Source: Utricularia gibba | Lineage: Eukaryota > Streptophyta > Magnoliopsida > Lamiales > Lentibulariaceae | Direction: 5' to 3' | DNA: 24,213 bases | Assembly: GCA_002189035.1 (NCBI GenBank) | Contig: NEEC01000207.1 | Location: forward strand, 1-24,213 | Part shown: positions 1-21,980 of the stretch, in pieces | Numbering within the stretch: position 1 is the stretch's first letter | Layout: the number at the start of each line of letters is the position of its first letter | The notes under the pieces: model-generated | What the model was told of the DNA's origin: nothing | Databases searched by the model: none | The model's input: the letters and a program-made list of their open reading frames with translations, nothing else | Position numbers and translations under genes: made by a program

Positions 1-2
1 TC

Positions 3-1056
3 TTGCATAACATGCAGATCCTTGCTCTTCATAGCACACGTTGGGAAGCCTTTTCGAGCTCCAAGTATTATAATTTGGAGTTACGTTTGTCCGATAACTG
101 TGGACATATTAAAAACAAGCCACAACGAAAAGTGTCTTAGGTGTCCTTTCTTGGTGGCTGCGTCTAAGAATGTGCTTCTCGTTCTCGACATTGATGCAAA
201 TGGGATACACGGCAAAAGAATCAAATAGCCACTAGAGACATGGTGTATGGGAATGGTGCATCAAGAATCAGAAGTATCATAGCAACTAATTGAATCAATC
301 AACAGCCAAAACATATGGTGTCAAACTTCATCGGATATGCGATCAAGATGGAAAAAAGTCACATGTTACATCATGAATTTCGTGGCATCACTTATCCAAC
401 ACTGTTATACACTCTGGATATGCGTAAATATTTATTTTTAATGAATCCGTGCACGTGTGATTTTTAGGATGCACCCCGAATGATGATGCGCAATGAAATG
501 ACTACGTCGCACATCCTGGTCCGCGAAGCACCTCTTGCATAACATGCAGATCCTTGCTCTTCATAGCACACTGTTGGGAAGCCCTTTCGAGCTCCAAGTA
601 TTATAATTTGGAGTTACGTTTGTCCGATAACTGTGGACATATTAAAAAAGGGCCACAACGAAAGGTGTCTCACGTGGCATTCCGTGGTGACTGCATTTAA
701 TAATGTGCTTCATGTTCTCGAAATTGATGCGAACAACATACAAGGCAAAAGAATCAAATAGCCACTAGAGACATGGTATACGGGAATGGTGCATCAAGAA
801 TCAGAAGTATCATAGCAACTAAATGCATCAACATATGGTGTCAGAATTCATCTACTATGCGATCAAGTTGGAAAAAAGTCACATGCTACATCATGAATTT
901 CGTGGCATCACTTATCCCAACACTGTTATACACTCTGGATATGCGTAAATATTTATTTTTAATGAATCCCGTGCACGTGTGATTTTTAGGATGCACCCCG
1001 AATGATGATGCGCAATGAAATGACTACGTCGCACATCCTGGTCCGCGAAGCACCTC
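3..1056 (+). repeat. A-B dimer 1 (1,054 bp)
   Basis: The A half (3-534) lacks a T in ACACGTTGGG and a C in AAGCCTTTT, and reads TTATCCAACA where other copies have CCC. Its 3' end is B-like. The B half (535-1056) is 522 bp because CCCTTTT is shortened to CCCTTT. Confidence 0.93.
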
Positions 1057-2111
1057 TTGCATAACATGCAGATCCTTGCTCTTCATAGCACACTGTTGGG
1101 AAGCCCTTTTCGAGCTCCAAGTATTATAATTTGGAGTTACGTTTGTCCGATAACTGTGGACATATTAAAAACAAGCCACAACGAAAAGTGTCTTAGGTGT
1201 CCTTTCTTGGTGGCTGCGTCTAAGAATGTGCTTCTCGTTCTCGACATTGATGCAAATGGGATACACGGCAAAAGAATCAAATAGCCACTAGAGACATGGT
1301 GTATGGGAATGGTGCATCAAGAATCAGAAGTATCATAGCAACTAATTGAATCAATCAACAGCCAAAACATATGGTGTCAAACTTCATCGGATATGCGATC
1401 AAGATGGAAAAAAGTCACATGTTACATCATGAATTTCGTGGCATCACTTATCCCAACACTGTTATACTCAGGATATGCGTAAATATTTATTTTTAATGAA
1501 TCCGTGCACGTGTGATTTTTAGGATGCACCCCGAATGGTGATGCGCAATGAAATGACTACGTCGCACATCCTGGTCGCGAAACACCTCTTGCATAACATG
1601 CAGATCCTTGCTCTTCATAGCACACTGTTGGGAAGCCCTTTTCGAGCTCCAAGTATTATAATTTGGAGTTACGTTTGTCCGATAACTGTGGACATATTAA
1701 AAAAGGGCCACAACGAAAGGTGTCTCACGTGGCATTCCGTGGTGACTGCATTTAATAATGTGCTTCATGTTCTCGAAATTGATGCGAACAACATACAAGG
1801 CAAAAGAATCAAATAGCCACTAGAGACATGGTATACGGGAATGGTGCATCAAGAATCAGAAGTATCATAGCAACTAAATGCATCAACATATGGTGTCAGA
1901 ATTCATCTACTATGCGATCAAGTTGGAAAAAAGTCACATGCTACATCATGAATTTCGTGGCATCACTTATCCCAACACTGTTATACACTCTGGATATGCG
2001 TAAATATTTATTTTTAATGAATCCCGTGCACGTGTGATTTTTAGGATGCACCCCGAATGATGATGCGCAATGAAATGACTACGTCGCACATCCTGGTCCG
2101 CGAAGCACCTC
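1057..2111 (+). repeat. A-B dimer 2 (1,055 bp)
   Basis: The A half is 1057-1588 and the B half 1589-2111. The 3' end of A is mixed: A-like TTATACTCAGG and GAATGGTG, but B-like TAATGAATCCG and AGGATGCACCCC. It also reads TGGTCGCGAAAC instead of TGGTCCGCGAAGC. Confidence 0.93.
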
Positions 2112-2703
2112 TTGCATAACATGCAGATCCTTGCTCTTCATAGCACACTGTTGGGAAGCCCTTTTCGAGCTCCAAGTATTATAATTTGGAGTTACGTTTG
2201 TCCGATAACTGTGGACATATTAAAAACAAGCCACAACGAAAAGTGTCTTAGGTGTCCTTTCTTGGTGGCTGCGTCTAAGAATGTGCTTCTCGTTCTCGAC
2301 ATTGATGCAAATGGGATACACGGCAAAAGAATCAAATAGCCACTAGAGACATGGTGTATGGGAATGGTGCATCAAGAATCAGAAGTATCATAGCAACTAA
2401 TTGAATCAATCAACAGCCAAAACATATGGTGTCAAACTTCATCGGATATGCGATCAAGATGGAAAAAAGTCACATGTTACATCATGAATTTCGTGGCATC
2501 ACTTATCCCAACACTGTTATACACTCTGGATATGCGTAAATATTTATTTTTAATGAATCCGTGCACGTGTGATTTTTCGGATGCACCCGAATGATGATGC
2601 GCAATGAAATGACTACGTCGCACATCCTGGTCCGCGAAGCACCTCTTGCATAACATGCAGATCCTTGCTCTTCATAGCACACTGTTGGGAAGCCCTTTTC
2701 GAG

Positions 2704-2725
2704 CTCCAAGTATTATAATTTGGAG
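2704..2725. other. Dyad symmetry in the shared segment (example copy)
   Basis: The arms CTCCAA and TTGGAG flank a 10-bp AT-rich centre, giving a 22-bp imperfect palindrome. It was intact in every monomer I checked, including the scrambled copy at 18922, for example at 59-80 in the first monomer. It could extrude a small cruciform or bind a dimeric protein. No function can be assigned. Confidence 0.8.
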
Positions 2726-3081
2726 TTACGTTTGTCCGATAACTGTGGACATATTAAAAAAGGGCCACAACGAAAGGTGTCTCACGTGGCATTCCGTGGT
2801 GACTGCATTTAATAATGTGCTTCATGTTCTCGAAATTGATGCGAACAACATACAAGGCAAAAGAATCAAATAGCCACTAGAGACATGGTATACGGGAATG
2901 GTGCATCAAGAATCAGAAGTATCATAGCAACTAAATGCATCAACATATGGTGTCAGAATTCATCTACTATGCGATCAAGTTGGAAAAAAGTCACATGCTA
3001 CATCATGAATTTCGTGGCATCACTTATCCCAACACTGTTATACACTCTGGATATGCGTAAATATTTATTTTTAATGAATCC

Positions 3082-3091
3082 CGTGCACGTG
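3082..3091. other. Overlapping CGTGCACG and CACGTG palindromes (example copy)
   Basis: CGTGCACG (3082-3089) overlaps CACGTG (3086-3091), and the combination recurs near the 3' end of essentially all monomers. A-type 3' ends read GGTGCACGTG, which changes the first base of the 8-bp palindrome but keeps CACGTG. B has a second CACGTG in its divergent block (2783-2788). CACGTG is the G-box/E-box core, but with no gene nearby a regulatory role is not supported. Confidence 0.6.
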
Positions 3092-3168
3092 TGATTTTTA
3101 GGATGCACCCCGAATGATGATGCGCAATGAAATGACTACGTCGCACATCCTGGTCCGCGAAGCACCTC

Positions 3169-3703
3169 TTGCATAACATGCAGATCCTTGCTCTTCATAG
3201 CACACTGTTGGGAAGCCCTTTTCGAGCTCCAAGTATTATAATTTGGAGTTACGTTTGTCCGATAACTGTGGACATATTAAAAACAAGCCACAACGAAAAG
3301 TGTCTTAGGTGTCCTTTCTTGGTGGCTGCGTCTAAGAATGTGCTTCTCGTTCTCGACATTGATGCAAATGGGATACACGGCAAAAGAATCAAATAGCCAC
3401 TAGAGACATGGTGTATGGGAATGGTGCATCAAGAATCAGAAGTATCATAGCAACTAATTGAATCAATCAACAGCCAAAACATATGGTGTCAAACTTCATC
3501 GGATATGCGATCAAGATGGAAAAAAGTCACATGTTACATCATGAATTTCGTGGCATCACTTATCCCAACACTGTTATACACTCTGGATATGCGTAAATAT
3601 TTATTTTTAATGAATCCGTGCACGTGTGATTTTTAGGATGCACCCCGAATGATGATGCGCAATGAAATGACTACGTCGCACATCCTGGTCCGCGAAGCAC
3701 CTC
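3169..3703 (+). repeat. Monomer A, reference copy (535 bp)
   Basis: This copy is used as the description of type A. In order it holds: the invariant first segment shared with B (3169-3283), including the CTCCAA/TTGGAG dyad; the A version of the 95-bp divergent block (3284-3378, beginning CAAGCCACAACG and ending GGGATACAC); a shared stretch; an A-only insertion ending AGCCAAAAC (3472-3480); the A words CAAACTTCATCGGATATG and AAGATGG; and a 3' part (about 3571-3656) that varies between A copies. In this copy that 3' part is close to B (TTATACACTCTGG, TAATGAATCCG, AGGATGCACCCC). A has no EcoRI site. It is non-coding. Confidence 0.93.
3472..3480 (+). other. A-only insertion relative to B (example copy)
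   Basis: AGCCAAAAC between CAAC and ATATGG is present in A and absent from B, where CATCAAC joins ATATGG directly. With the adjoining TTGAATCAATCAAC difference it accounts for most of the A-B length gap. It is bounded by AAC repeats, so slippage or short-repeat deletion can remove it, as seen in the A copy at 13741. Confidence 0.8.
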
Positions 3704-4226
3704 TTGCATAACATGCAGATCCTTGCTCTTCATAGCACACTGTTGGGAAGCCCTTTTCGAGCTCCAAGTATTATAATTTGGAGTTACGTTTGTCCGATAA
3801 CTGTGGACATATTAAAAAAGGGCCACAACGAAAGGTGTCTCACGTGGCATTCCGTGGTGACTGCATTTAATAATGTGCTTCATGTTCTCGAAATTGATGC
3901 GAACAACATACAAGGCAAAAGAATCAAATAGCCACTAGAGACATGGTATACGGGAATGGTGCATCAAGAATCAGAAGTATCATAGCAACTAAATGCATCA
4001 ACATATGGTGTCAGAATTCATCTACTATGCGATCAAGTTGGAAAAAAGTCACATGCTACATCATGAATTTCGTGGCATCACTTATCCCAACACTGTTATA
4101 CACTCTGGATATGCGTAAATATTTATTTTTAATGAATCCCGTGCACGTGTGATTTTTAGGATGCACCCCGAATGATGATGCGCAATGAAATGACTACGTC
4201 GCACATCCTGGTCCGCGAAGCACCTC

Positions 4227-5281
4227 TTGCATAACATGCAGATCCTTGCTCTTCATAGCACACTGTTGGGAAGCCCTTTTCGAGCTCCAAGTATTATAAT
4301 TTGGAGTTACGTTTGTCCGATAACTGTGGACATATTAAAAACAAGCCACAACGAAAAGTGTCTTAGGTGTCCTTTCTTGGTGGCTGCGTCTAAGAATGTG
4401 CTTCTCGTTCTCGACATTGATGCAAATGGGATACACGGCAAAAGAATCAAATAGCCACTAGAGACATGGTGTATGGGAATGGTGCATCAAGAATCAGAAG
4501 TATCATAGCAACTAATTGAATCAATCAACAGCCAAAACATATGGTGTCAAACTTCATCGGATATGCGATCAAGATGGAAAAAAGTCACATGTTACATCAT
4601 GAATTTCGTGGCATCACTTATCCCAACACTGTTATATACTCAGGATATGCGTAAATATTTATTTTTAACAATCCGTGCACGTGTGATTTTTCGGATGCAC
4701 CCGAATGGTGATGCGCAATGAAATGACTACGTCGCACATCCTGGTCCGCGAACACCTCTTGCATAACATGCAGATCCTTGCTCTTCATAGCACACTGTTG
4801 GGAAGCCCTTTTCGAGCTCCAAGTATTATAATTTGGAGTTACGTTTGTCCGATAACTGTGGACATATTAAAAAAGGGCCACAACGAAAGGTGTCTCACGT
4901 GGCATTCCGTGGTGACTGCATTTAATAATGTGCTTCATGTTCTCGAAATTGATGCGAACAACATACAAGGCAAAAGAATCAAATAGCCACTAGAGACATG
5001 GTATACGGGAATGGTGCATCAAGAATCAGAAGTATCATAGCAACTAAATGCATCAACATATGGTGTCAGAATTCATCTACTATGCGATCAAGTTGGAAAA
5101 AAGTCACATGCTACATCATGAATTTCGTGGCATCACTTATCCCAACACTGTTATACACTCTGGATATGCGTAAATATTTATTTTTAATGAATCCCGTGCA
5201 CGTGTGATTTTTAGGATGCACCCCGAATGATGATGCGCAATGAAATGACTACGTCGCACATCCTGGTCCGCGAAGCACCTC
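4227..5281 (+). repeat. A-B dimer 5 (1,055 bp)
   Basis: The A half is 4227-4758 and the B half 4759-5281. The A 3' end is mostly A-like (TTATATACTCAGG, TAACAATCCG, TTCGGATGC, GAATGGTG). CGCGAACACC lacks the G found elsewhere in CGCGAAGCACC. Confidence 0.93.
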
Positions 5282-6336
5282 TTGCATAACATGCAGATCC
5301 TTGCTCTTCATAGCACACTGTTGGGAAGCCCTTTTCGAGCTCCAAGTATTATAATTTGGAGTTACGTTTGTCCGATAACTGTGGACATATTAAAAACAAG
5401 CCACAACGAAAAGTGTCTTAGGTGTCCTTTCTTGGTGGCTGCGTCTAAGAATGTGCTTCTCGTTCTCGACATTGATGCAAATGGGATACACGGCAAAAGA
5501 ATCAAATAGCCACTAGAGACATGGTGTATGGGAATGGTGCATCAAGAATCAGAAGTATCATAGCAACTAATTGAATCAATCAACAGCCAAAACATATGGT
5601 GTCAAACTTCATCGGATATGCGATCAAGATGGAAAAAAGTCACATGTTACATCATGAATTTCGTGGCATCACTTATCCCAACACTGTTATACACTCTGGA
5701 TATGCGTAAATATTTATTTTTAATGAATCCGTGCACGTGTGATTTTTCGGATGCACCCGAATGATGATGCGCAATGAAATGACTACGTCGCACATCCTGG
5801 TCGCGAAGCACCTCTTGCATAACATGCAGATCCTTGCTCTTCATAGCACACTGTTGGGAAGCCCTTTCGAGCTCCAAGTATTATAATTTGGAGTTACGTT
5901 TGTCCGATAACTGTGGACATATTAAAAAAGGGCCACAACGAAAGGTGTCTCACGTGGCATTCCGTGGTGACTGCATTTAATAATGTGCTTCATGTTCTCG
6001 AAATTGATGCGAACAACATACAAGGCAAAAGAATCAAATAGCCACTAGAGACATGGTATACGGGAATGGTGCATCAAGAATCAGAAGTATCATAGCAACT
6101 AAATGCATCAACATATGGTGTCAGAATTCATCTACTATGCGATCAAGTTGGAAAAAAGTCACATGCTACATCATGAATTTCGTGGCATCACTTATCCCAA
6201 CACTGTTATACACTCTGGATATGCGTAAATATTTATTTTTAATGAATCCCGTGCACGTGTGATTTTTAGGATGCACCCCGAATGATGATGCGCAATGAAA
6301 TGACTACGTCGCACATCCTGGTCCGCGAAGCACCTC
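5282..6336 (+). repeat. A-B dimer 6 (1,055 bp)
   Basis: The A half (5282-5814) has a mixed 3' end: B-like TTATACACTCTGG, A-like TTCGGATGC, and TGGTCGCG missing one C. The B half (5815-6336) is 522 bp because CCCTTTT is one T short. Confidence 0.93.
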
Positions 6337-7392
6337 TTGCATAACATGCAGATCCTTGCTCTTCATAGCACACTGTTGGGAAGCCCTTTTCGAGCTCCAA
6401 GTATTATAATTTGGAGTTACGTTTGTCCGATAACTGTGGACATATTAAAAACAAGCCACAACGAAAAGTGTCTTAGGTGTCCTTTCTTGGTGGCTGCGTC
6501 TAAGAATGTGCTTCTCGTTCTCGACATTGATGCAAATGGGATACACGGCAAAAGAATCAAATAGCCACTAGAGACATGGTGTATGGGAATGGTGCATCAA
6601 GAATCAGAAGTATCATAGCAACTAATTGAATCAATCAACAGCCAAAACATATGGTGTCAAACTTCATCGGATATGCGATCAAGATGGAAAAAAGTCACAT
6701 GTTACATCATGAATTTCGTGGCATCACTTATCCCAACACTGTTGTATACTCAGGATATGCGTAAATATTTATTTTTAACAATCCGTGCACGTGTGATTTT
6801 TAGGCTGCATCCCGAATGTGATGCGCAATGAAATGACTACGTCGCACATCCTGGTCCGCGAAGCACCTCTTGCATAACATGCAGATCCTTGCTCTTCATA
6901 GCACACTGTTGGGAAGCCCTTTTCGAGCTCCAAGTATTATAATTTGGAGTTACGTTTGTCCGATAACTGTGGACATATTAAAAAAGGGCCACAACGAAAG
7001 GTGTCTCACGTGGCATTCCGTGGTGACTGCATTTAATAATGTGCTTCATGTTCTCGAAATTGATGCGAACAACATACAAGGCAAAAGAATCAAATAGCCA
7101 CTAGAGACATGGTATACGGGAATGGTGCATCAAGAATCAGAAGTATCATAGCAACTAAATGCATCAACATATGGTGTCAGAATTCATCTACTATGCGATC
7201 AAGTTGGAAAAAAGTCACATGCTACATCATGAATTTCGTGGCATCACTTATCCCAACACTGTTATACACTCTGGATATGCGTAAATATTTATTTTTAATG
7301 AATCCCGTGCACGTGTGATTTTTAGGATGCACCCCGAATGATGATGCGCAATGAAATGACTACGTCGCACATCCTGGTCCGCGAAGCACCTC
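6337..7392 (+). repeat. A-B dimer 7 (1,056 bp)
   Basis: The A half is 6337-6869 and the B half 6870-7392. The A 3' end is mostly A-like (TTGTATACTCAGG, TAACAATCCG, GGCTGCATCCC). GAATGTGATG has lost a base at the column where A has G and B has A. Confidence 0.93.
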
Positions 7393-8449
7393 TTGCATAA
7401 CATGCAGATCCTTGCTCTTCATAGCACACTGTTGGGAAGCCCTTTTCGAGCTCCAAGTATTATAATTTGGAGTTACGTTTGTCCGATAACTGTGGACATA
7501 TTAAAAACAAGCCACAACGAAAAGTGTCTTAGGTGTCCTTTCTTGGTGGCTGCGTCTAAGAATGTGCTTCTCGTTCTCGACATTGATGCAAATGGGATAC
7601 ACGGCAAAAGAATCAAATAGCCACTAGAGACATGGTGTATGGGAATGGTGCATCAAGAATCAGAAGTATCATAGCAACTAATTGAATCAATCAACAGCCA
7701 AAACATATGGTGTCAAACTTCATCGGATATGCGATCAAGATGGAAAAAAGTCACATGTTACATCATGAATTTCGTGGCATCACTTATCCCAACACTGTTA
7801 TACACTCAGGATATGCGTAAATATTTATTTTTAACAATCCGTGCACGTGTGATTTTTAGGCTGCATCCCGAATGGTGATGCGCAATGAAATGACTACGTC
7901 GCACATCCTGGTCCGCGAAGCACCTCTTGCATAACATGCAGATCCTTGCTCTTCATAGCACACTGTTGGGAAGCCCTTTTCGAGCTCCAAGTATTATAAT
8001 TTGGAGTTACGTTTGTCCGATAACTGTGGACATATTAAAAAAGGGCCACAACGAAAGGTGTCTCACGTGGCATTCCGTGGTGACTGCATTTAATAATGTG
8101 CTTCATGTTCTCGAAATTGATGCGAACAACATACAAGGCAAAAGAATCAAATAGCCACTAGAGACATGGTATACGGGAATGGTGCATCAAGAATCAGAAG
8201 TATCATAGCAACTAAATGCATCAACATATGGTGTCAGAATTCATCTACTATGCGATCAAGTTGGAAAAAAGTCACATGCTACATCATGAATTTCGTGGCA
8301 TCACTTATCCCAACACTGTTATACACTCTGGATATGCGTAAATATTTATTTTTAATGAATCCCGTGCACGTGTGATTTTTAGGATGCACCCCGAATGATG
8401 ATGCGCAATGAAATGACTACGTCGCACATCCTGGTCCGCGAAGCACCTC
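7393..8449 (+). repeat. A-B dimer 8 (1,057 bp)
   Basis: The A half is 7393-7926 and the B half 7927-8449. The A 3' end combines TTATACACTCAGG (half B, half A) with TAACAATCCG, GGCTGCATCCC and GAATGGTG. Confidence 0.94.
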
Positions 8450-9506
8450 TTGCATAACATGCAGATCCTTGCTCTTCATAGCACACTGTTGGGAAGCCCT
8501 TTTCGAGCTCCAAGTATTATAATTTGGAGTTACGTTTGTCCGATAACTGTGGACATATTAAAAACAAGCCACAACGAAAAGTGTCTTAGGTGTCCTTTCT
8601 TGGTGGCTGCGTCTAAGAATGTGCTTCTCGTTCTCGACATTGATGCAAATGGGATACACGGCAAAAGAATCAAATAGCCACTAGAGACATGGTGTATGGG
8701 AATGGTGCATCAAGAATCAGAAGTATCATAGCAACTAATTGAATCAATCAACAGCCAAAACATATGGTGTCAAACTTCATCGGATATGCGATCAAGATGG
8801 AAAAAAGTCACATGTTACATCATGAATTTCGTGGCATCACTTATCCCAACACTGTTGTATACTCAGGATATGCGTAAATATTTATTTTTAAAATCCGGTG
8901 CACGTGTGATTTTTCGGATGCATCCCGAATGGTGATGCGCAATGAAATGACTACGTCGCACATCCTGGTCCGCGAAGCACCTCTTGCATAACATGCAGAT
9001 CCTTGCTCTTCATAGCACACTGTTGGGAAGCCCTTTTCGAGCTCCAAGTATTATAATTTGGAGTTACGTTTGTCCGATAACTGTGGACATATTAAAAAAG
9101 GGCCACAACGAAAGGTGTCTCACGTGGCATTCCGTGGTGACTGCATTTAATAATGTGCTTCATGTTCTCGAAATTGATGCGAACAACATACAAGGCAAAA
9201 GAATCAAATAGCCACTAGAGACATGGTATACGGGAATGGTGCATCAAGAATCAGAAGTATCATAGCAACTAAATGCATCAACATATGGTGTCAGAATTCA
9301 TCTACTATGCGATCAAGTTGGAAAAAAGTCACATGCTACATCATGAATTTCGTGGCATCACTTATCCCAACACTGTTATACACTCTGGATATGCGTAAAT
9401 ATTTATTTTTAATGAATCCCGTGCACGTGTGATTTTTAGGATGCACCCCGAATGATGATGCGCAATGAAATGACTACGTCGCACATCCTGGTCCGCGAAG
9501 CACCTC
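8450..9506 (+). repeat. A-B dimer 9 (1,057 bp)
   Basis: The A half is 8450-8983 and the B half 8984-9506. The A 3' end is A-like (TTGTATACTCAGG, CCGGTGC, TTCGGATGCATCCC, GAATGGTG), but TTTAAAATCC is shorter than the full A form TTTAACAAATCC. Confidence 0.94.
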
Positions 9507-10564
9507 TTGCATAACATGCAGATCCTTGCTCTTCATAGCACACTGTTGGGAAGCCCTTTTCGAGCTCCAAGTATTATAATTTGGAGTTACGTTTGTCCGA
9601 TAACTGTGGACATATTAAAAACAAGCCACAACGAAAAGTGTCTTAGGTGTCCTTTCTTGGTGGCTGCGTCTAAGAATGTGCTTCTCGTTCTCGACATTGA
9701 TGCAAATGGGATACACGGCAAAAGAATCAAATAGCCACTAGAGACATGGTGTATGGGAATGGTGCATCAAGAATCAGAAGTATCATAGCAACTAATTGAA
9801 TCAATCAACAGCCAAAACATATGGTGTCAAACTTCATCGGATATGCGATCAAGATGGAAAAAAGTCACATGTTACATCATGAATTTCGTGGCATCACTTA
9901 TCCCAACACTGTTGTATACTCAGGATATGCGTAAATATTTATTTTTAACAATCCGGTGCACGTGTGATTTTTCGGATGCATCCCGAATGGTGATGCGCAA
10001 TGAAATGACTACGTCGCACATCCTGGTCCGCGAAGCACCTCTTGCATAACATGCAGATCCTTGCTCTTCATAGCACACTGTTGGGAAGCCCTTTTCGAGC
10101 TCCAAGTATTATAATTTGGAGTTACGTTTGTCCGATAACTGTGGACATATTAAAAAAGGGCCACAACGAAAGGTGTCTCACGTGGCATTCCGTGGTGACT
10201 GCATTTAATAATGTGCTTCATGTTCTCGAAATTGATGCGAACAACATACAAGGCAAAAGAATCAAATAGCCACTAGAGACATGGTATACGGGAATGGTGC
10301 ATCAAGAATCAGAAGTATCATAGCAACTAAATGCATCAACATATGGTGTCAGAATTCATCTACTATGCGATCAAGTTGGAAAAAAGTCACATGCTACATC
10401 ATGAATTTCGTGGCATCACTTATCCCAACACTGTTATACACTCTGGATATGCGTAAATATTTATTTTTAATGAATCCCGTGCACGTGTGATTTTTAGGAT
10501 GCACCCCGAATGATGATGCGCAATGAAATGACTACGTCGCACATCCTGGTCCGCGAAGCACCTC
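9507..10564 (+). repeat. A-B dimer 10 (1,058 bp)
   Basis: The A half is 9507-10041 and the B half 10042-10564. The A 3' end is A-like with TTAACAATCCGG, one A short of the full A form, and TTCGGATGCATCCC. Confidence 0.94.
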
Positions 10565-11623
10565 TTGCATAACATGCAGATCCTTGCTCTTCATAGCACA
10601 CTGTTGGGAAGCCCTTTTCGAGCTCCAAGTATTATAATTTGGAGTTACGTTTGTCCGATAACTGTGGACATATTAAAAACAAGCCACAACGAAAAGTGTC
10701 TTAGGTGTCCTTTCTTGGTGGCTGCGTCTAAGAATGTGCTTCTCGTTCTCGACATTGATGCAAATGGGATACACGGCAAAAGAATCAAATAGCCACTAGA
10801 GACATGGTGTATGGGAATGGTGCATCAAGAATCAGAAGTATCATAGCAACTAATTGAATCAATCAACAGCCAAAACATATGGTGTCAAACTTCATCGGAT
10901 ATGCGATCAAGATGGAAAAAAGTCACATGTTACATCATGAATTTCGTGGCATCACTTATCCCAACACTGTTGTATACTCAGGATATGCGTAAATATTTAT
11001 TTTTAACAAATCCGGTGCACGTGTGATTTTTCGGCTGCATCCCGAATGGTGATGCGCAATGAAATGACTACGTCGCACATCCTGGTCCGCGAAGCACCTC
11101 TTGCATAACATGCAGATCCTTGCTCTTCATAGCACACTGTTGGGAAGCCCTTTTCGAGCTCCAAGTATTATAATTTGGAGTTACGTTTGTCCGATAACTG
11201 TGGACATATTAAAAAAGGGCCACAACGAAAGGTGTCTCACGTGGCATTCCGTGGTGACTGCATTTAATAATGTGCTTCATGTTCTCGAAATTGATGCGAA
11301 CAACATACAAGGCAAAAGAATCAAATAGCCACTAGAGACATGGTATACGGGAATGGTGCATCAAGAATCAGAAGTATCATAGCAACTAAATGCATCAACA
11401 TATGGTGTCAGAATTCATCTACTATGCGATCAAGTTGGAAAAAAGTCACATGCTACATCATGAATTTCGTGGCATCACTTATCCCAACACTGTTATACAC
11501 TCTGGATATGCGTAAATATTTATTTTTAATGAATCCCGTGCACGTGTGATTTTTAGGATGCACCCCGAATGATGATGCGCAATGAAATGACTACGTCGCA
11601 CATCCTGGTCCGCGAAGCACCTC
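10565..11623 (+). repeat. A-B dimer 11 (1,059 bp), full A-type 3' end
   Basis: The A half (10565-11100) carries what looks like the undiluted A 3' end: TTGTATACTCAGG, TAACAAATCCGG, TTCGGCTGCATCCC and GAATGGTG. The copy at 16811 has nearly the same 3' end (with TTATACTCAGG). The B half is 11101-11623. Confidence 0.94.
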
Positions 11624-12683
11624 TTGCATAACATGCAGATCCTTGCTCTTCATAGCACACTGTTGGGAAGCCCTTTTCGAGCTCCAAGTATTATAATTTG
11701 GAGTTACGTTTGTCCGATAACTGTGGACATATTAAAAACAAGCCACAACGAAAAGTGTCTTAGGTGTCCTTTCTTGGTGGCTGCGTCTAAGAATGTGCTT
11801 CTCGTTCTCGACATTGATGCAAATGGGATACACGGCAAAAGAATCAAATAGCCACTAGAGACATGGTGTATGGGAATGGTGCATCAAGAATCAGAAGTAT
11901 CATAGCAACTAATTGAATCAATCAACAGCCAAAACATATGGTGTCAAACTTCATCGGATATGCGATCAAGATGGAAAAAAGTCACATGTTACATCATGAA
12001 TTTCGTGGCATCACTTATCCCAACACTGTTATACACTCTGGATATGCGTAAATATTTATTTTTAATGAATCCCGGTGCACGTGTGATTTTTAGGATGCAC
12101 CCCGAATGATGATGCGCAATGAAATGACTACGTCGCACATCCTGGTCCGCGAAGCACCTCTTGCATAACATGCAGATCCTTGCTCTTCATAGCACACTGT
12201 TGGGAAGCCCTTTTCGAGCTCCAAGTATTATAATTTGGAGTTACGTTTGTCCGATAACTGTGGACATATTAAAAAAGGGCCACAACGAAAGGTGTCTCAC
12301 GTGGCATTCCGTGGTGACTGCATTTAATAATGTGCTTCATGTTCTCGAAATTGATGCGAACAACATACAAGGCAAAAGAATCAAATAGCCACTAGAGACA
12401 TGGTATACGGGAATGGTGCATCAAGAATCAGAAGTATCATAGCAACTAAATGCATCAACATATGGTGTCAGAATTCATCTACTATGCGATCAAGTTGGAA
12501 AAAAGTCACATGCTACATCATGAATTTCGTGGCATCACTTATCCCAACACTGTTATACACTCTGGATATGCGTAAATATTTATTTTTAATGAATCCCGTG
12601 CACGTGTGATTTTTAGGATGCACCCCGAATGATGATGCGCAATGAAATGACTACGTCGCACATCCTGGTCCGCGAAGCACCTC
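11624..12683 (+). repeat. A-B dimer 12 (1,060 bp)
   Basis: The A half (11624-12160) is the longest, 537 bp. Its 3' end is B-like but reads AATCCCGGTGC, which holds both the extra C of B (CCCG) and the extra G of A (CCGG). The B half is 12161-12683. Confidence 0.94.
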
Positions 12684-13740
12684 TTGCATAACATGCAGAT
12701 CCTTGCTCTTCATAGCACACTGTTGGGAAGCCCTTTTCGAGCTCCAAGTATTATAATTTGGAGTTACGTTTGTCCGATAACTGTGGACATATTAAAAACA
12801 AGCCACAACGAAAAGTGTCTTAGGTGTCCTTTCTTGGTGGCTGCGTCTAAGAATGTGCTTCTCGTTCTCGACATTGATGCAAATGGGATACACGGCAAAA
12901 GAATCAAATAGCCACTAGAGACATGGTGTATGGGAATGGTGCATCAAGAATCAGAAGTATCATAGCAACTAATTGAATCAATCAACAGCCAAAACATATG
13001 GTGTCAAACTTCATCGGATATGCGATCAAGATGGAAAAAAGTCACATGTTACATCATGAATTTCGTGGCATCACTTATCCCAACACTGTTATATACTCTG
13101 GATATGCGTAAATATTTATTTTTAATGAATCCGTGCACGTGTGATTTTTAGGATGCACCCGAATGATGATGCGCAATGAAATGACTACGTCGCACATCCT
13201 GGTCCGCGAAGCACCTCTTGCATAACATGCAGATCCTTGCTCTTCATAGCACACTGTTGGGAAGCCCTTTTCGAGCTCCAAGTATTATAATTTGGAGTTA
13301 CGTTTGTCCGATAACTGTGGACATATTAAAAAAGGGCCACAACGAAAGGTGTCTCACGTGGCATTCCGTGGTGACTGCATTTAATAATGTGCTTCATGTT
13401 CTCGAAATTGATGCGAACAACATACAAGGCAAAAGAATCAAATAGCCACTAGAGACATGGTATACGGGAATGGTGCATCAAGAATCAGAAGTATCATAGC
13501 AACTAAATGCATCAACATATGGTGTCAGAATTCATCTACTATGCGATCAAGTTGGAAAAAAGTCACATGCTACATCATGAATTTCGTGGCATCACTTATC
13601 CCAACACTGTTATACACTCTGGATATGCGTAAATATTTATTTTTAATGAATCCCGTGCACGTGTGATTTTTAGGATGCACCCCGAATGATGATGCGCAAT
13701 GAAATGACTACGTCGCACATCCTGGTCCGCGAAGCACCTC
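12684..13740 (+). repeat. A-B dimer 13 (1,057 bp)
   Basis: The A half is 12684-13217 and the B half 13218-13740. The A 3' end is mainly B-like, with TTATATACTCTGG and shortened AATCCG and GCACCCG. Confidence 0.94.
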
Positions 13741-14267
13741 TTGCATAACATGCAGATCCTTGCTCTTCATAGCACACTGTTGGGAAGCCCTTTTCGAGCT
13801 CCAAGTATTATAATTTGGAGTTACGTTTGTCCGATAACTGTGGACATATTAAAAACAAGCCACAACGAAAAGTGTCTTAGGTGTCCTTTCTTGGTGGCTG
13901 CGTCTAAGAATGTGCTTCTCGTTCTCGACATTGATGCAAATGGGATACACGGCAAAAGAATCAAATAGCCACTAGAGACATGGTGTATGGGAATGGTGCA
14001 TCAAGAATCAGAAGTATCATAGCAACTAATTGAATCAATCAACATATGGTGTCAAACTTCATCGGATATGCGATCAAGATGGAAAAAAGTCACATGTTAC
14101 ATCATGAATTTCGTGGCATCACTTATCCCAACACTGTTATACACTCTGGATATGCGTAAATATTTATTTTTAATGAATCCCGTGCACGTGTGATTTTTAG
14201 GATGCACCCCGAATGATGATGCGCAATGAAATGACTACGTCGCACATCCTGGTCCGCGAAGCACCTC
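13741..14267 (+). repeat. Monomer A with 9-bp deletion (527 bp)
   Basis: This is a standard A in the divergent block, but it lacks AGCCAAAAC, so AATCAATCAAC runs straight into ATATGG at about 14042. The lost unit is bounded by AAC on both sides. The 3' end is B-like (TAATGAATCCCG, AGGATGCACCCC). It is the last regular A before the first disturbed block. Confidence 0.92.
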
Positions 14268-14782
14268 TTGCATAACATGCAGATCCTTGCTCTTCATAGC
14301 ACACTGTTGGGAAGCCCTTTTCGAGCTCCAAGTATTATAATTTGGAGTTACGTTTGTCCGATAACTGTGGACATATTAAAAAAGCCACAACGAAAGGTGT
14401 CTCACGTGGCATTCCGTGGTGACTGCATTAATAATGTGCTTCATGTTCTCGAAATTGATGCAAAATACAAGGCAAAAGAATCAAATAGCCACTAGAGACA
14501 TGGTATATGGGAATGGTGCATCAAGAATCAGAAGTATCATAGCAACTAAATGCATCAACATATGGTGTCAGAATTCATCTACTATGCGATCAAGTTGGAA
14601 AAAAGTCACATGCTACATCATGAATTTCGTGGCATCACTTATCCCAACACTGTTATACACTCTGGATATGCGTAAATATTTATTTTTAATGAATCCCGTG
14701 CACGTGTGATTTTTAGGATGCACCCGAATGATGATGCGCAATGAAATGACTACGTCGCACATCCTGGTCCGCGAAGCACCTC
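14268..14782 (+). repeat. B-like hybrid monomer (515 bp)
   Basis: Most diagnostic words are B (TCTCACGTGGCATTCCG, CAGAATTCATCTACTATG). The run GGGCC is reduced to AGCC, GCATTTAATAAT to GCATTAATAAT, and GCGAACAACATACAAGG to GCAAAATACAAGG. GGTATATGGG mixes A and B. It is 8 bp shorter than B, with the losses at A/B-discordant positions. Confidence 0.9.
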
Positions 14783-15281
14783 TTGCATAACATGCAGATC
14801 CTTGCTCTTCATAGCACACTGTTGGGAAGCCCTTTTCGAGCTCCAAGTATTATAATTTGGAGTTACGTTTGTCCGATAACTGTGGACATATTAAAAAAGC
14901 CACAACGAAAGTGTCTTAGGTGTCTTGGTGCTGCGTTAAGAATGTGCTTCTGTTCTCGAATTGATGCAAAATACACGGCAAAAGAATCAAATAGCCACTA
15001 GAGACATGGTATATGGGAATGGTGCATCAAGAATCAGAAGTATCATAGCAACTAAAATCATCAGGGTGTCAAATTCATCTATATGCGATCAAGATGGAAA
15101 AAAGTCACATGTTACATCATGAATTTCGTGGCATCACTTATCCCAACACTGTTATACACTCTGGATATGCGTAAATATTTATTTTTAATGAATCCGTGCA
15201 CGTGTGATTTTTAGGATGCACCCCGAATGATGATGCGCAATGAAATGACTACGTCGCACATCCTGGTCCGCGAAGCACCTC
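14783..15281 (+). repeat. A-like hybrid monomer (499 bp)
   Basis: The divergent block is A-like but eroded: GTGTCTTGGTGCTGCGTTAAG and GCTTCTGTTCTCGAATTGATG. Later it reads ACTAAAATCATCAGGGTGTC in place of the A or B linker, and CAAATTCATCTATATG between the two parental forms. It is shorter than either parent and lacks EcoRI. Confidence 0.88.
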
Positions 15282-15783
15282 TTGCATAACATGCAGATCC
15301 TTGCTCTTCATAGCACACTGTTGGGAAGCCCTTTTCGAGCTCCAAGTATTATAATTTGGAGTTACGTTTGTCCGATAACTGTGGACATATTAAAAAAAGC
15401 CACAACGAAAGTGTCTTAGTGTGGTGACTGCATTAATAATGTGCTTCTGTTCTCGAATTGATGCAAAAATACAGGCAAAAGAATCAAATAGCCACTAGAG
15501 ACATGGTGTACGGGAATGGTGCATCAAGAATCAGAAGTATCATAGCAACTAAATGCATCAACATATGGTGTCAAATTCATCTATATGCGATCAAGTTGGA
15601 AAAAAGTCACATGTACATCATGAATTTCGTGGCATCACTTATCCCAACACTGTTATACACTCTGGATATGCGTAAATATTTATTTTTAATGAATCCCGTG
15701 CACGTGTGATTTTTAGGATGCACCCCGAATGATGATGCGCAATGAAATGACTACGTCGCACATCCTGGTCCGCGAAGCACCTC
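15282..15783 (+). repeat. A/B hybrid monomer (502 bp)
   Basis: The block begins A-like (GTGTCTTAG), jumps to B-like TGGTGACTGCATTAATAAT, and then reads GCTTCTGTTCTCGAATTG with bases missing where A and B differ. GGTGTACGGG mixes both parents, and CAAATTCATCTATATG lacks EcoRI. It sits in the slot where a B is expected. Confidence 0.88.
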
Positions 15784-16287
15784 TTGCATAACATGCAGAT
15801 CCTTGCTCTTCATAGCACACTGTTGGGAAGCCCTTTTCGAGCTCCAAGTATTATAATTTGGAGTTACGTTTGTCCGATAACTGTGGACATATTAAAAAAA
15901 GCCACAACGAAAGTGTCTTAGTGTCCTTTCTTGGTGGCTGCGTTAAGAATGTGCTTCTCGTTCTCGAATTGATGCAAACATACAAGGCAAAAGAATCAAA
16001 TAGCCACTAGAGACATGGTGTATGGGAATGGTGCATCAAGAATCAGAAGTATCATAGCAACTAATTCAACATATGGTGTCAAATTCATCGGATATGCGAT
16101 CAAGTGGAAAAAAGTCACATGTTACATCATGAATTTCGTGGCATCACTTATCCAACACTGTTATACTCTGGATATGCGTAAATATTTATTTTTAATGAAT
16201 CCGTGCACGTGTGATTTTTAGGATGCACCCGAATGATGATGCGCAATGAAATGACTACGTCGCACATCCTGGTCCGCGAAGCACCTC
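15784..16287 (+). repeat. A-like hybrid monomer (504 bp)
   Basis: It carries A words (CCTTTCTTGGTGGCTGCG, GGTGTATGGG) with losses at discordant sites: GCGTTAAG, CTCGAATTG, ACTAATTCAACATATGG and AAGTGGAAA. The 3' part also shows shortened TTATCCAACA and TTATACTCTGG. It is followed by a clean B at 16288. Confidence 0.89.
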
Positions 16288-17344
16288 TTGCATAACATGC
16301 AGATCCTTGCTCTTCATAGCACACTGTTGGGAAGCCCTTTTCGAGCTCCAAGTATTATAATTTGGAGTTACGTTTGTCCGATAACTGTGGACATATTAAA
16401 AAAGGGCCACAACGAAAGGTGTCTCACGTGGCATTCCGTGGTGACTGCATTTAATAATGTGCTTCATGTTCTCGAAATTGATGCGAACAACATACAAGGC
16501 AAAAGAATCAAATAGCCACTAGAGACATGGTATACGGGAATGGTGCATCAAGAATCAGAAGTATCATAGCAACTAAATGCATCAACATATGGTGTCAGAA
16601 TTCATCTACTATGCGATCAAGTTGGAAAAAAGTCACATGCTACATCATGAATTTCGTGGCATCACTTATCCCAACACTGTTATACACTCTGGATATGCGT
16701 AAATATTTATTTTTAATGAATCCCGTGCACGTGTGATTTTTAGGATGCACCCCGAATGATGATGCGCAATGAAATGACTACGTCGCACATCCTGGTCCGC
16801 GAAGCACCTCTTGCATAACATGCAGATCCTTGCTCTTCATAGCACACTGTTGGGAAGCCCTTTTCGAGCTCCAAGTATTATAATTTGGAGTTACGTTTGT
16901 CCGATAACTGTGGACATATTAAAAACAAGCCACAACGAAAAGTGTCTTAGGTGTCCTTTCTTGGTGGCTGCGTCTAAGAATGTGCTTCTCGTTCTCGACA
17001 TTGATGCAAATGGGATACACGGCAAAAGAATCAAATAGCCACTAGAGACATGGTGTATGGGAATGGTGCATCAAGAATCAGAAGTATCATAGCAACTAAT
17101 TGAATCAATCAACAGCCAAAACATATGGTGTCAAACTTCATCGGATATGCGATCAAGATGGAAAAAAGTCACATGTTACATCATGAATTTCGTGGCATCA
17201 CTTATCCCAACACTGTTATACTCAGGATATGCGTAAATATTTATTTTTAACAAATCCGGTGCACGTGTGATTTTTCGGCTGCATCCCGAATGGTGATGCG
17301 CAATGAAATGACTACGTCGCACATCCTGGTCCGCGAAGCACCTC
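16288..17344 (+). repeat. Clean B-A dimer between disturbed blocks
   Basis: The B (16288-16810) is a full 523-bp copy with EcoRI. The A (16811-17344, 534 bp) has a strongly A-type 3' end (TTATACTCAGG, TAACAAATCCGG, TTCGGCTGCATCCC). The phase of alternation with the first 16 kb is kept. Confidence 0.94.
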
Positions 17345-17867
17345 TTGCATAACATGCAGATCCTTGCTCTTCATAGCACACTGTTGGGAAGCCCTTTTCG
17401 AGCTCCAAGTATTATAATTTGGAGTTACGTTTGTCCGATAACTGTGGACATATTAAAAAAGGGCCACAACGAAAGGTGTCTCACGTGGCATTCCGTGGTG
17501 ACTGCATTTAATAATGTGCTTCATGTTCTCGAAATTGATGCGAACAACATACAAGGCAAAAGAATCAAATAGCCACTAGAGACATGGTATACGGGAATGG
17601 TGCATCAAGAATCAGAAGTATCATAGCAACTAAATGCATCAACATATGGTGTCAGAATTCATCTACTATGCGATCAAGTTGGAAAAAAGTCACATGCTAC
17701 ATCATGAATTTCGTGGCATCACTTATCCCAACACTGTTATACACTCTGGATATGCGTAAATATTTATTTTTAATGAATCCCGTGCACGTGTGATTTTTAG
17801 GATGCACCCCGAATGATGATGCGCAATGAAATGACTACGTCGCACATCCTGGTCCGCGAAGCACCTC
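17345..17867 (+). repeat. Monomer B (523 bp)
   Basis: A full-length regular B. It is the last copy in phase with the upstream A-B alternation, because the next monomer is also B-like. Confidence 0.94.
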
Positions 17868-18386
17868 TTGCATAACATGCAGATCCTTGCTCTTCATAGC
17901 ACACTGTTGGGAAGCCCTTTTCGAGCTCCAAGTATTATAATTTGGAGTTACGTTTGTCCGATAACTGTGGACATATTAAAAAAAGCCACAACGAAAGTGT
18001 CTCAGGTGGCATTCTTGGTGACTGCATTTAATAATGTGCTTCATGTTCTCGAAATTGATGCAACAACATACAAGGCAAAAGAATCAAATAGCCACTAGAG
18101 ACATGGTATACGGGAATGGTGCATCAAGAATCAGAAGTATCATAGCAACTAAATGCATCAACATATGGTGTCAGAATTCATCTACTATGCGATCAAGTTG
18201 GAAAAAAGTCACATGCTACATCATGAATTTCGTGGCATCACTTATCCCAACACTGTTATACACTCTGGATATGCGTAAATATTTATTTTTAATGAATCCC
18301 GTGCACGTGTGATTTTTAGGATGCACCCCGAATGATGATGCGCAATGAAATGACTACGTCGCACATCCTGGTCCGCGAAGCACCTC
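17868..18386 (+). repeat. B-like hybrid monomer (519 bp), register break
   Basis: This copy follows a B directly but is itself B-like (CATGTTCTCGAAATTGATGC, GGTATACGGG, EcoRI in CAGAATTCATC). The block start has A-type features (AAAAAAAGCC, TCTCAGGTGGCATTCTTGG). It breaks A-B alternation, either by unequal exchange or by misassembly. Confidence 0.88.
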
Positions 18387-18921
18387 TTGCATAACATGCA
18401 GATCCTTGCTCTTCATAGCACACTGTTGGGAAGCCCTTTTCGAGCTCCAAGTATTATAATTTGGAGTTACGTTTGTCCGATAACTGTGGACATATTAAAA
18501 ACAAGCCACAACGAAAAGTGTCTTAGGTGTCCTTTCTTGGTGGCTGCGTCTAAGAATGTGCTTCTCGTTCTCGACATTGATGCAAATGGGATACACGGCA
18601 AAAGAATCAAATAGCCACTAGAGACATGGTGTATGGGAATGGTGCATCAAGAATCAGAAGTATCATAGCAACTAATTGAATCAATCAACAGCCAAAACAT
18701 ATGGTGTCAAACTTCATCGGATATGCGATCAAGATGGAAAAAAGTCACATGTTACATCATGAATTTCGTGGCATCACTTATCCCAACACTGTTGTATACT
18801 CTGGATATGCGTAAATATTTATTTTTAACAAATCCGTGCACGTGTGATTTTTAGGATGCATCCCGAATGATGATGCGCAATGAAATGACTACGTCGCACA
18901 TCCTGGTCCGCGAAGCACCTC
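18387..18921 (+). repeat. Monomer A (535 bp)
   Basis: A full-length A with a mixed 3' end: A-like TTGTATACTC, TAACAAATCC and GCATCCC, and B-like TCTGG, AGGATGC and GATGATG. It immediately precedes the scrambled monomer. Confidence 0.93.
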
Positions 18922-19387
18922 TTGCATAACATGCAGATCCTTGCTCTTCATAGCACACTGTTGGGAAGCCCTTTCGAGCTCCAAGTATTATAATTTGGAG
19001 TTACGTTTGTCCGATAACTACAAGGACAACGAAAGTGTCCACGTGGCAAATAATGTGTTCATTAAATTGATGTGTCTTTCGGGTGGTGCGTCTCAATGTG
19101 TATCATAGTTCAAATTAAATGCATCAACACGGCAAAAGAATTCAATACCACTAGAGACATGTTGGAAAAAAATCATGCAAGACATCAGAAGTTTCATAGC
19201 AACATAGCAACTCAATCAACAGCCAAAACATATGGTGTCAAACTTCATCTATATACACTCTCAAGTGGATATGTCACATAAATATTTATTTTTAATAATC
19301 CGTGCACGTGTGATTTTTAGGATGCACCCCGAATGATGATGCGCAATGAAATGACTACGTCGCACATCCTGGTCCGCGAAGCACCTC
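18922..19387 (+). repeat. Scrambled 466-bp monomer
   Basis: The first ~98 bp match the normal monomer (with one T lost) and the last ~110 bp from ATAAATATTTATTTTTAA are nearly normal. Positions 19020-19278 are a jumble. B words (CAAATAATGTG) are followed by A words (GGGTGGTGCGTCT), GCATCAAC appears before CACGGCAAAAG, and ATAGCAAC is doubled. It lacks about 60-70 bp. A new EcoRI word occurs at 19138-19143. It may be a failed consensus or a truly rearranged unit; no inserted foreign sequence is seen. Confidence 0.85.
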
Positions 19388-19901
19388 TTGCATAACATGC
19401 AGATCCTTGCTCTTCATAGCACACTGTTGGGAAGCCCTTTTCGAGCTCCAAGTATTATAATTTGGAGTTACGTTTGTCCGATAACTGTGGACATATTAAA
19501 AAACAAGCCACAACGAAAGTGTCTCACGTGGCTTTCCGTGGTGGCTGCATTTAATAATGTGCTTCATGTTCTCGAAATTGATGCAACAACATACAAGGCA
19601 AAAGAATCAAATAGCCACTAGAGACATGGTATATTGGTGCATCAAGAATCAGAAGTATCATAGCAACTAAATGCAATCAACATATGGTGTCAAATTCATC
19701 TATATGCGATCAAGATTGGAAAAAAGTCACATTTACATCATGAATTTCGTGGCATCACTTATCCCAACACTGTTATACACTCTGGATATGCGTAAATATT
19801 TATTTTTAATGAATCCCGTGCACGTGTGATTTTTAGGATGCACCCGAATGATGATGCGCAATGAAATGACTACGTCGCACATCCTGGTCCGCAAGCACCT
19901 C
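19388..19901 (+). repeat. B-like hybrid monomer (514 bp)
   Basis: It starts with an A-type block edge (AAAAAACAAGCC), then B words with single A bases (GGCTTTCCGTGGTGGCTGC). GGTATATTGGTGC lacks the GGAAT of both parents. CAAATTCATCTATATG and AAGATTGG show both parental bases retained or lost. Confidence 0.88.
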
Positions 19902-20428
19902 TTGCATAACATGCAGATCCTTGCTCTTCATAGCACACTGTTGGGAAGCCCTTTTCGAGCTCCAAGTATTATAATTTGGAGTTACGTTTGTCCGATAACT
20001 GTGGACATATTAAAAAACAAGCCACAACGAAAAGTGTCTTAGGTGTCCTTTCTTGGTGGCTGCGTTAATAATGTGCTTCTGTTCTCGAAATTGATGCAAA
20101 TATACAGGCAAAAGAATCAAATAGCCACTAGAGACATGGTGTATGGGAATGGTGCATCAAGAATCAGAAGTATCATAGCAACTAATGAATCAATCAACAG
20201 CCAACATATGGTGTCAAACTTCATCTATATGCGATCAAGATGGAAAAAAGTCACATGTTACATCATGAATTTCGTGGCATCACTTATCCCAACACTGTTA
20301 TACACTCTGGATATGCGTAAATATTTATTTTTAATGAATCCCGTGCACGTGTGATTTTTAGGATGCACCCCGAATGATGATGCGCAATGAAATGACTACG
20401 TCGCACATCCTGGTCCGCGAAGCACCTC
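19902..20428 (+). repeat. A-like hybrid monomer (527 bp)
   Basis: It is A-type through CCTTTCTTGGTGGCTGCG, then GTTAATAATGTGC and CTTCTGTTCTCGAAATTG are intermediate. ACTAATGAATCAATCAAC and AGCCAACATATGG are shortened A forms. The 3' end is fully B-like. Confidence 0.88.
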
Positions 20429-20950
20429 TTGCATAACATGCAGATCCTTGCTCTTCATAGCACACTGTTGGGAAGCCCTTTTCGAGCTCCAAGTATTATA
20501 ATTTGGAGTTACGTTTGTCGATAACTGTGGACATATTAAAAAACAAGCCACAACGAAAAGTGTCTCACGTGGCATTCCGTGGTGACTGCATTTAATAATG
20601 TGCTTCATGTTCTCGAAATTGATGCAACAACATACAAGGCAAAAGAATCAAATAGCCACTAGAGACATGGTATACGGGAATGGTGCATCAAGAATCAGAA
20701 GTATCATAGCAACTAAATGCATCAACATATGGTGTCAGAATTCATCTACTATGCGATCAAGATGGAAAAAAGTCACATGCTACATCATGAATTTCGTGGC
20801 ATCACTTATCCCAACACTGTTATACACTCTGGATATGCGTAAATATTTATTTTTAATGAATCCCGTGCACGTGTGATTTTTAGGATGCACCCCGAATGAT
20901 GATGCGCAATGAAATGACTACGTCGCACATCCTGGTCCGCGAAGCACCTC
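20429..20950 (+). repeat. B-like hybrid monomer (522 bp)
   Basis: An A-type edge (AAACAAGCC, GAAAAGTGTCT) is joined to B from TCACGTGGCATTCCG onward; EcoRI is kept, but AAGATGG is A. TTTGTCGATAAC lacks a C, a change shared with the next monomer. Confidence 0.88.
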
Positions 20951-21465
20951 TTGCATAACATGCAGATCCTTGCTCTTCATAGCACACTGTTGGGAAGCCC
21001 TTTTCGAGCTCCAAGTATTATAATTTGGAGTTACGTTTGTCGATAACTGTGGACATATTAAAAAAAGCCACAACGAAAGTGTCTCACGTGGCATTTGGTG
21101 ACTGCATTTAATAATGTGCTTCATGTTCTCGAAATTGATGCGAACAACATACAAGGCAAAAGAATCAAATAGCCACTAGAGACATGGTATACGGGAATGG
21201 TGCATCAAGAATCAGAAGTATCATAGCAACTAAATGCATCAACATATGGTGTCAAATTCATCTACTATGCGATCAAGTTGGAAAAAAGTCACATGCTACA
21301 TCATGAATTTCGTGCATCACTTATCCCAACACTGTTATACACTCTGGATATGCGTAAATATTTATTTTTAATGAATCCCGTGCACGTGTGATTTTTAGGA
21401 TGCACCCCGAATGATGATGCGCAATGAAATGACTACGTCGCACATCCTGGTCCGCGAAGCACCTC
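20951..21465 (+). repeat. B-like hybrid monomer (515 bp)
   Basis: A second B-like copy in a row. It has AAAAAAAGCC, GTGGCATTTGGTGACTGC with lost bases, CAAATTCATCTACTATG without EcoRI, and TTTCGTGCATC lacking one G. It shares TTTGTCGATAAC with the copy at 20429. Confidence 0.88.
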
Positions 21466-21980
21466 TTGCATAACATGCAGATCCTTGCTCTTCATAGCAC
21501 ACTGTTGGGAAGCCCTTTTCGAGCTCCAAGTATTATAATTTGGAGTTACGTTTTCCGATAACTGTGGACATATTAAAAACAAGCCACAACGAAAAGTGTC
21601 TTACGTGCTTTCTGGTGGCTGCGTTAAGAATGTGCTTCTGTTCTCGACATTGATGCAAACATACAGGCAAAAGAATCAAATAGCCACTAGAGACATGGTG
21701 TATGGAATGGTGCATCAAGAATCAGAAGTATCATAGCAACTGAATCAATCAACAGAAACATATGGTGTCAAATTCATCTATATGCGATCAAGATGGAAAA
21801 AAGTCACATGTTACATCATGAATTTCGTGGCATCACTTATCCCAACACTGTTATACACTCTGGATATGCGTAAATATTTATTTTTAATGAATCCGTGCAC
21901 GTGTGATTTTTAGGATGCACCCCGAATGATGATGCGCAATGAAATGACTACGTCGCACATCCTGGTCCGCGAAGCACCTC
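21466..21980 (+). repeat. A-like hybrid monomer (515 bp)
   Basis: It is A-like with many small losses: GTTTTCCGATAAC, TTACGTGCTTTCTGGTGG, GCGTTAAG, CTTCTGTTCTCG, GTGTATGGAATGG, CAACTGAATCAATC and CAACAGAAACATATGG. A second A follows it directly. Confidence 0.88.

Follow-up and report, generated by a model that had tools for sequence, protein, structure and literature searches.

Dimeric higher-order repeat satellite DNA is a class of tandem repeat in which A and B monomers alternate in a homogenised array. The window analysed here (the entire 24213-bp contig NEEC01000207.1 of the Utricularia gibba assembly GCA_002189035.1, hereafter C293) is a satellite of alternating A (523 bp) and B (~535 bp) monomers. 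Its undisturbed monomers share both features of the class, but the class fits these monomers only, and four short units in the middle of the window differ. The second comparable system comes from long-read assembly, where a mosaic or collapsed consensus can be built from mixed alleles or from several copies of a repeat: the HiCanu paper (PMC7545148) describes mosaic consensus with frameshifting errors and the mixing of similar repeat copies by Canu. As far as the parts of that paper available here go, the likeness lies in a sequence that matches no real copy, indels at the differences between the sources and a permissive assembler, while the mixed sources here would differ in being two monomers of one dimeric satellite. 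Base loss at discordant columns of a satellite is not described in those parts, our literature search found no paper on this exact satellite signature, and the available part of PMC5100563 had no bearing on the question. Inferences about gene conversion and the evolution of arrays draw on satellite contigs, and blended monomers would count as recombinants and therefore inflate such counts. Judging from the sequence, the four short monomers very probably arose as a consensus artefact, from A and B reads that had been mixed.

Using an anchor word, 46 monomers were marked from end to end of the window, all features given below being on the forward strand unless noted. The first 25 anchor spacings strictly alternate between 522–523 bp (A) and 532–537 bp (B), followed by spacings of 527, 515, 499, 502 and 504 bp and then by 523, 534 and 523 bp. 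The regular dimeric array thus spans positions 1–14260 and includes a single 523-bp A sequence present in 11 letter-for-letter copies within the window. Its last B-type monomer (13734–14260, 527 bp) is A-like at the last four discordant columns and has lost 9 bases of a 13-bp B-specific stretch. Ordinary A, B and A monomers resume at 16281–17860, as judged from anchor spacing and sequence identity, and the sequence around 16281 equals that around 13211, the identity reaching back 119 bp and forward 834 bp. Tandem Repeats Finder, whose longest period is 500, returned no rows for the window. In the assembly (100.09 Mb, 516 contigs searched) the exact anchor was counted 396 + 778 times, and the same or a sister satellite fills the stretches examined in eight other contigs (20.8–32.3 kb). 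Majority sequences were built from 13 A monomers (523 bp) and 12 B monomers (535 bp); their alignment has 484 equal columns out of 536, and the list of these 536 columns used for scoring holds 52 discordant ones, 38 of them substitutions.

The four successive monomers between 14261 and 16280 mix A and B calls. The sequence-only reading had given their lengths as 515, 499, 502 and 504 bp, shorter than both parents, and anchor spacing confirms these values exactly. Because the longest common subsequence of A and B is 490 bp, the hybrids sit between that length and the parental lengths. Depending on the placement of alignment ties, the first monomer (14261–14775, 515 bp, A-leaning) has lost 2 to 8 of the 38 discordant columns, the second (14776–15274, 499 bp) 4 to 17, the third (15275–15776, 502 bp) 5 to 17 and the fourth (15777–16280, 504 bp, B-leaning) 1 to 14, with the losses of the block starting near 14382 and stopping near 16228. 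The same monomers switch between A and B 3, 7, 5 and 5 times under one tie placement or 6, 14, 14 and 14 times under the other, and no switch at all was found in 113 of the 161 ordinary monomers. Across the four monomers, just two bases agree with neither A nor B, and no insertion occurs. The sequence-only reading had illustrated the loss by a word running from CTTC to ATTG and shortened to CTTCTGTTCTCGAATTG; this form occurs at 14947 and 15444, in two of the four monomers, while monomer 1 keeps the A form (14439) and monomer 4 carries a half-lost B form.

We then aligned each monomer to the A/B columns with either parent's base cost-free and placed ties both ways. The non-indel columns lost by the four monomers number 70. 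With ties pushed towards discordant columns, 67 of them lie at most two columns from an A/B difference, and with ties pushed the other way, 56 do, where chance predicts 26.8% (140 of 522 eligible columns; binomial p of 1e-34 or 3e-20). The count strictly on a discordant column varies between 56 and just 12 of the 70, since the alignment often lets a loss sit equally well on the differing base and on the adjacent one. The earlier claim that losses fall at discordant columns therefore holds to within a base or two (56–67 of 70, p < 1e-19), and the strict on-column figure varies with tie placement (12–56 of 70). Errors concentrated where the sources differ (56–67 of 70) are what a mixed-copy consensus artefact would show.

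This distribution bears directly on two other explanations. If the block consisted of old, decaying monomers with random deletions, scattered losses of the kind seen in ordinary monomers would be expected, and the 161 ordinary monomers do bear 186–218 deletions far from A/B differences. The deletions of the four monomers are, however, non-random along the unit (p of 3e-20 or smaller) and come with only the two foreign substitutions and no insertion, so that random decay is contradicted by the column test and we regard it as vanishingly unlikely. Plain sequencing error from thin coverage, with no mixing of A and B, is favoured by extra deletions at concordant sites in some stretches, among them an end of C324 and portions of C79, C167 and C292, but such error should neither cluster at A/B differences nor switch between A and B, and just 3 to 14 of the 70 losses in the block lie farther than two columns from a difference. 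This explanation is accordingly given very little probability.

To place the block in a wider context, we scored 193 monomers of 490–545 bp in the window and seven other contigs, with anchors allowed to vary by substitutions only and units outside this length range (e.g. 466, 460 and 549 bp) left out. A variant with indel-tolerant anchors was set aside, as it gave 212 monomers with starts shifted by 5 bases and blurred counts. Two monomers with more than 20 insertions (one in C79 and one in C324) were dropped, leaving 191. Hybrids were defined by a threshold for the numbers of A and B calls, which selects the pooled hybrids for few such calls and so favours losses among them; the four target monomers had been chosen by their length and not by this cut-off. 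By this definition, 30 of the 191 monomers in 6 of the 8 contigs were hybrids, or 26 under the opposite tie placement. The counts were 10/44 in C293, 9/55 in C80, 4/13 in C292, 3/15 in C97, 3/13 in C322, 1/27 in C79, 0/15 in C324 and 0/9 in C167, and these rates do not represent the assembly fairly, C80, C97, C292 and C322 having been picked for holding the hybrid word. Hybrid lengths ranged from 499 to 533 bp, with 25 shorter than A and five of 523 bp or longer.

Beyond the four-monomer block, six hybrids are in the window and 20 in five other contigs. Those in the window make up a second disturbed stretch (17861–21973), with hybrids at 17861, 19381, 19895, 20422, 20944 and 21459 and an ordinary B monomer at 18380. 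At 18915–19380 the same stretch contains a 466-bp monomer with a scrambled inner sequence, long parts of which match neither A nor B; a poorly called consensus or a faulty stretch of read could explain it, and its scrambling near the hybrids fits a noisy consensus. Separately, 17338–18379 holds two successive A-type monomers, the second of which (519 bp) opens with B-like calls, which amounts to a switch of dimer phase. Neighbouring AA or BB monomers were also seen in C80, C79, C167 and C292, where left-out units may intervene.

No hybrid recurred as a whole monomer, all 30 sequences being distinct. Among ordinary monomers, three sequences account for 53 of the 161 and singletons for 100, so singleton status is weak evidence alone. 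That every instance differs agrees with a mixed-copy artefact and says little by itself. Recurrence was also followed by words, CTTCTGTTCTCGAATTG and GTGTCTTAGTGTGGTGACTGCATTAATAATGTGC being two hybrid forms. The longer hybrid word, a 22-mer, has 9 copies in the assembly, all inside hybrid monomers of 499–533 bp. The degenerate A-or-B word, to which B-like units such as those of C83 also conform, has 2812. A 34-bp word of the third monomer occurs only once in the assembly, and a word of the fourth occurs, by a narrow pattern, at three places including C97:34 and C391, both in unscored monomers.

The relation between switching and loss was measured by sorting the 191 monomers into groups according to how often they switch between A and B, so that hybrids were not selected by their losses. 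With 0, 1, 2, 3 and at least 4 switches, the mean number of losses at most two columns from a difference was 0.57, 1.80, 2.08, 3.50 and 12.05 (n = 114, 35, 12, 8 and 22) under one tie placement and 0.36, 0.83, 1.54, 2.50 and 7.71 (n = 106, 24, 24, 2 and 35) under the other. Losses and switches were correlated over the 191 monomers (Spearman 0.66), and the rise holds under both placements. Far losses averaged 0.71, 2.46, 1.83, 1.62 and 1.23 in the same groups, or 0.70, 2.17, 3.12, 3.00 and 2.80 with ties placed the other way; they were higher in switched than in unswitched monomers without the steep rise of near losses. Single-switch monomers carried at least one loss in 24 of 35 cases and, under one tie placement, the most far deletions of any group (2.46 each).

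Genuine A/B exchange, by gene conversion or unequal crossing-over, has to be weighed against this pattern. The sequence-only reading had argued that such exchange should give A and B blocks of parental length, and loss-free single-switch recombinants of parental length were found in the window at 3162–3696 (535 bp) and 11617–12153 (537 bp), from which the four hybrids differ. The former exemplifies a B subtype of parental length whose last four discordant columns are A-like and which is possibly a true A/B exchange. The two loss-free recombinants are what real exchange would look like in this array, and since one-boundary mosaics of parental length exist in it, A/B exchange probably happens. 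For the short monomers to have arisen in this way, repair would have had to leave small deletions at each mismatch. The occurrence of one word of the fourth monomer at two more places is in favour of this, but the four hybrids have 3–7 switches per 500 bp (or more, depending on ties) and about 70 scattered losses, and no hybrid was copied twice among the 30. In place of parental-length blocks with few boundaries, the block has units of 499–515 bp with 3–7 (6–14) switches. No repair process known to us removes a base or a few at every one of many mismatches, and we consider this origin very unlikely. A related proposal, that the short hybrids are real and that recombination or repair trims mismatched bases whenever A and B pair, leaving shortened singletons of common sequence, is likewise most improbable.

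An array without A monomers offers a comparison. The first 10,000 of the 20,891 bp of C83 (C83:1–10000, L012) hold no anchor match and are outside the hybrid counts; they form a regular B-like array with no A, its units mostly 94% identical to B, and represent a sister subfamily. Of 17 units seen there, 16 are of 534–535 bp and one is of 527 bp. Such near-constant units are expected if the losses need two different monomers in a pile-up, and a biological A/B process predicts the same.

As for how mixing of reads would produce the short monomers, noisy long reads, which we assume as the source, of a near-uniform A/B dimer array may have been stacked one monomer out of register, or arrays in opposite phase may have been combined. 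Reads of A and of B would thereby overlie each other. A clean consensus would result wherever the two monomers agree, whereas at their differences neither a base nor a gap position would win clearly and the caller would write A, B or nothing. Each dropped call would bring the monomer closer to the subsequence that A and B share. The mixing might have taken place at read correction, contig consensus or polishing.

We simulated this process by mixing noisy A and B copies and calling a consensus over three rounds. With a 50:50 mix, a mismatch costing as much as an insertion plus a deletion and a majority rule, consensus lengths were 497–515 bp (8 runs) and 495–513 bp (16 runs), and under a plurality rule with a substitution priced like a single gap, they were 512–529 bp (8 runs) and 513–529 bp (16 runs). 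A mixed pile-up alone can therefore give units below either parental length that lose bases where the parents differ, while unmixed A was also trimmed slightly by the caller (514–523 bp). Plurality and occupancy rules with costlier mismatches were the best predictors of the per-column losses of the 30 hybrids (Spearman 0.57–0.59 at 5% error and 0.45–0.47 at 12%), but gave 510–530 bp (16 runs each), longer than three of the four monomers. Majority rules gave 489–510 bp (16 runs each) with weak correlations of 0.27–0.44 (0.31 in the earlier 16-run set), and strict-majority callers lost a mean of 16.3 to 27.8 of the 38 differences against 14.0 in the four monomers and 8.5 in the 30 hybrids. The claim that consensus calling from a mixed pile-up yields such loss was thus reproduced for the lengths, and no single caller among those run fitted both the lengths and the column pattern. 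Overall, the assembly-artefact reading first proposed from the letters is supported by losses near differences under both tie placements, their rise with switches, the absence of any copied hybrid and the matching simulated lengths.

Units that look blended in this way warrant no evolutionary reading before a check against raw reads. Their signature, i.e. losses at the differences between sister monomers, many switches, lengths mostly below both parents and no recurrence of whole units, makes a simple read-free screen that could be tried on other assemblies of dimeric or higher-order satellites.

Two further observations were made outside the window. On the reverse strand of C80, a 549-bp monomer at position 12396 is longer than both parents; its extra piece resembles another part of the unit and adjoins losses of the A/B type. 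C515 (L014–L015) carries a plant-like mitochondrial cox1 in two pieces; the piece compared with solved structures is matched best by chain 7jro, from mung bean, which makes a flowering plant the likely source. The first part of the gene runs into a frame resembling a LAGLIDADG intron protein, with a motif that we take to be LAGLIDADG.
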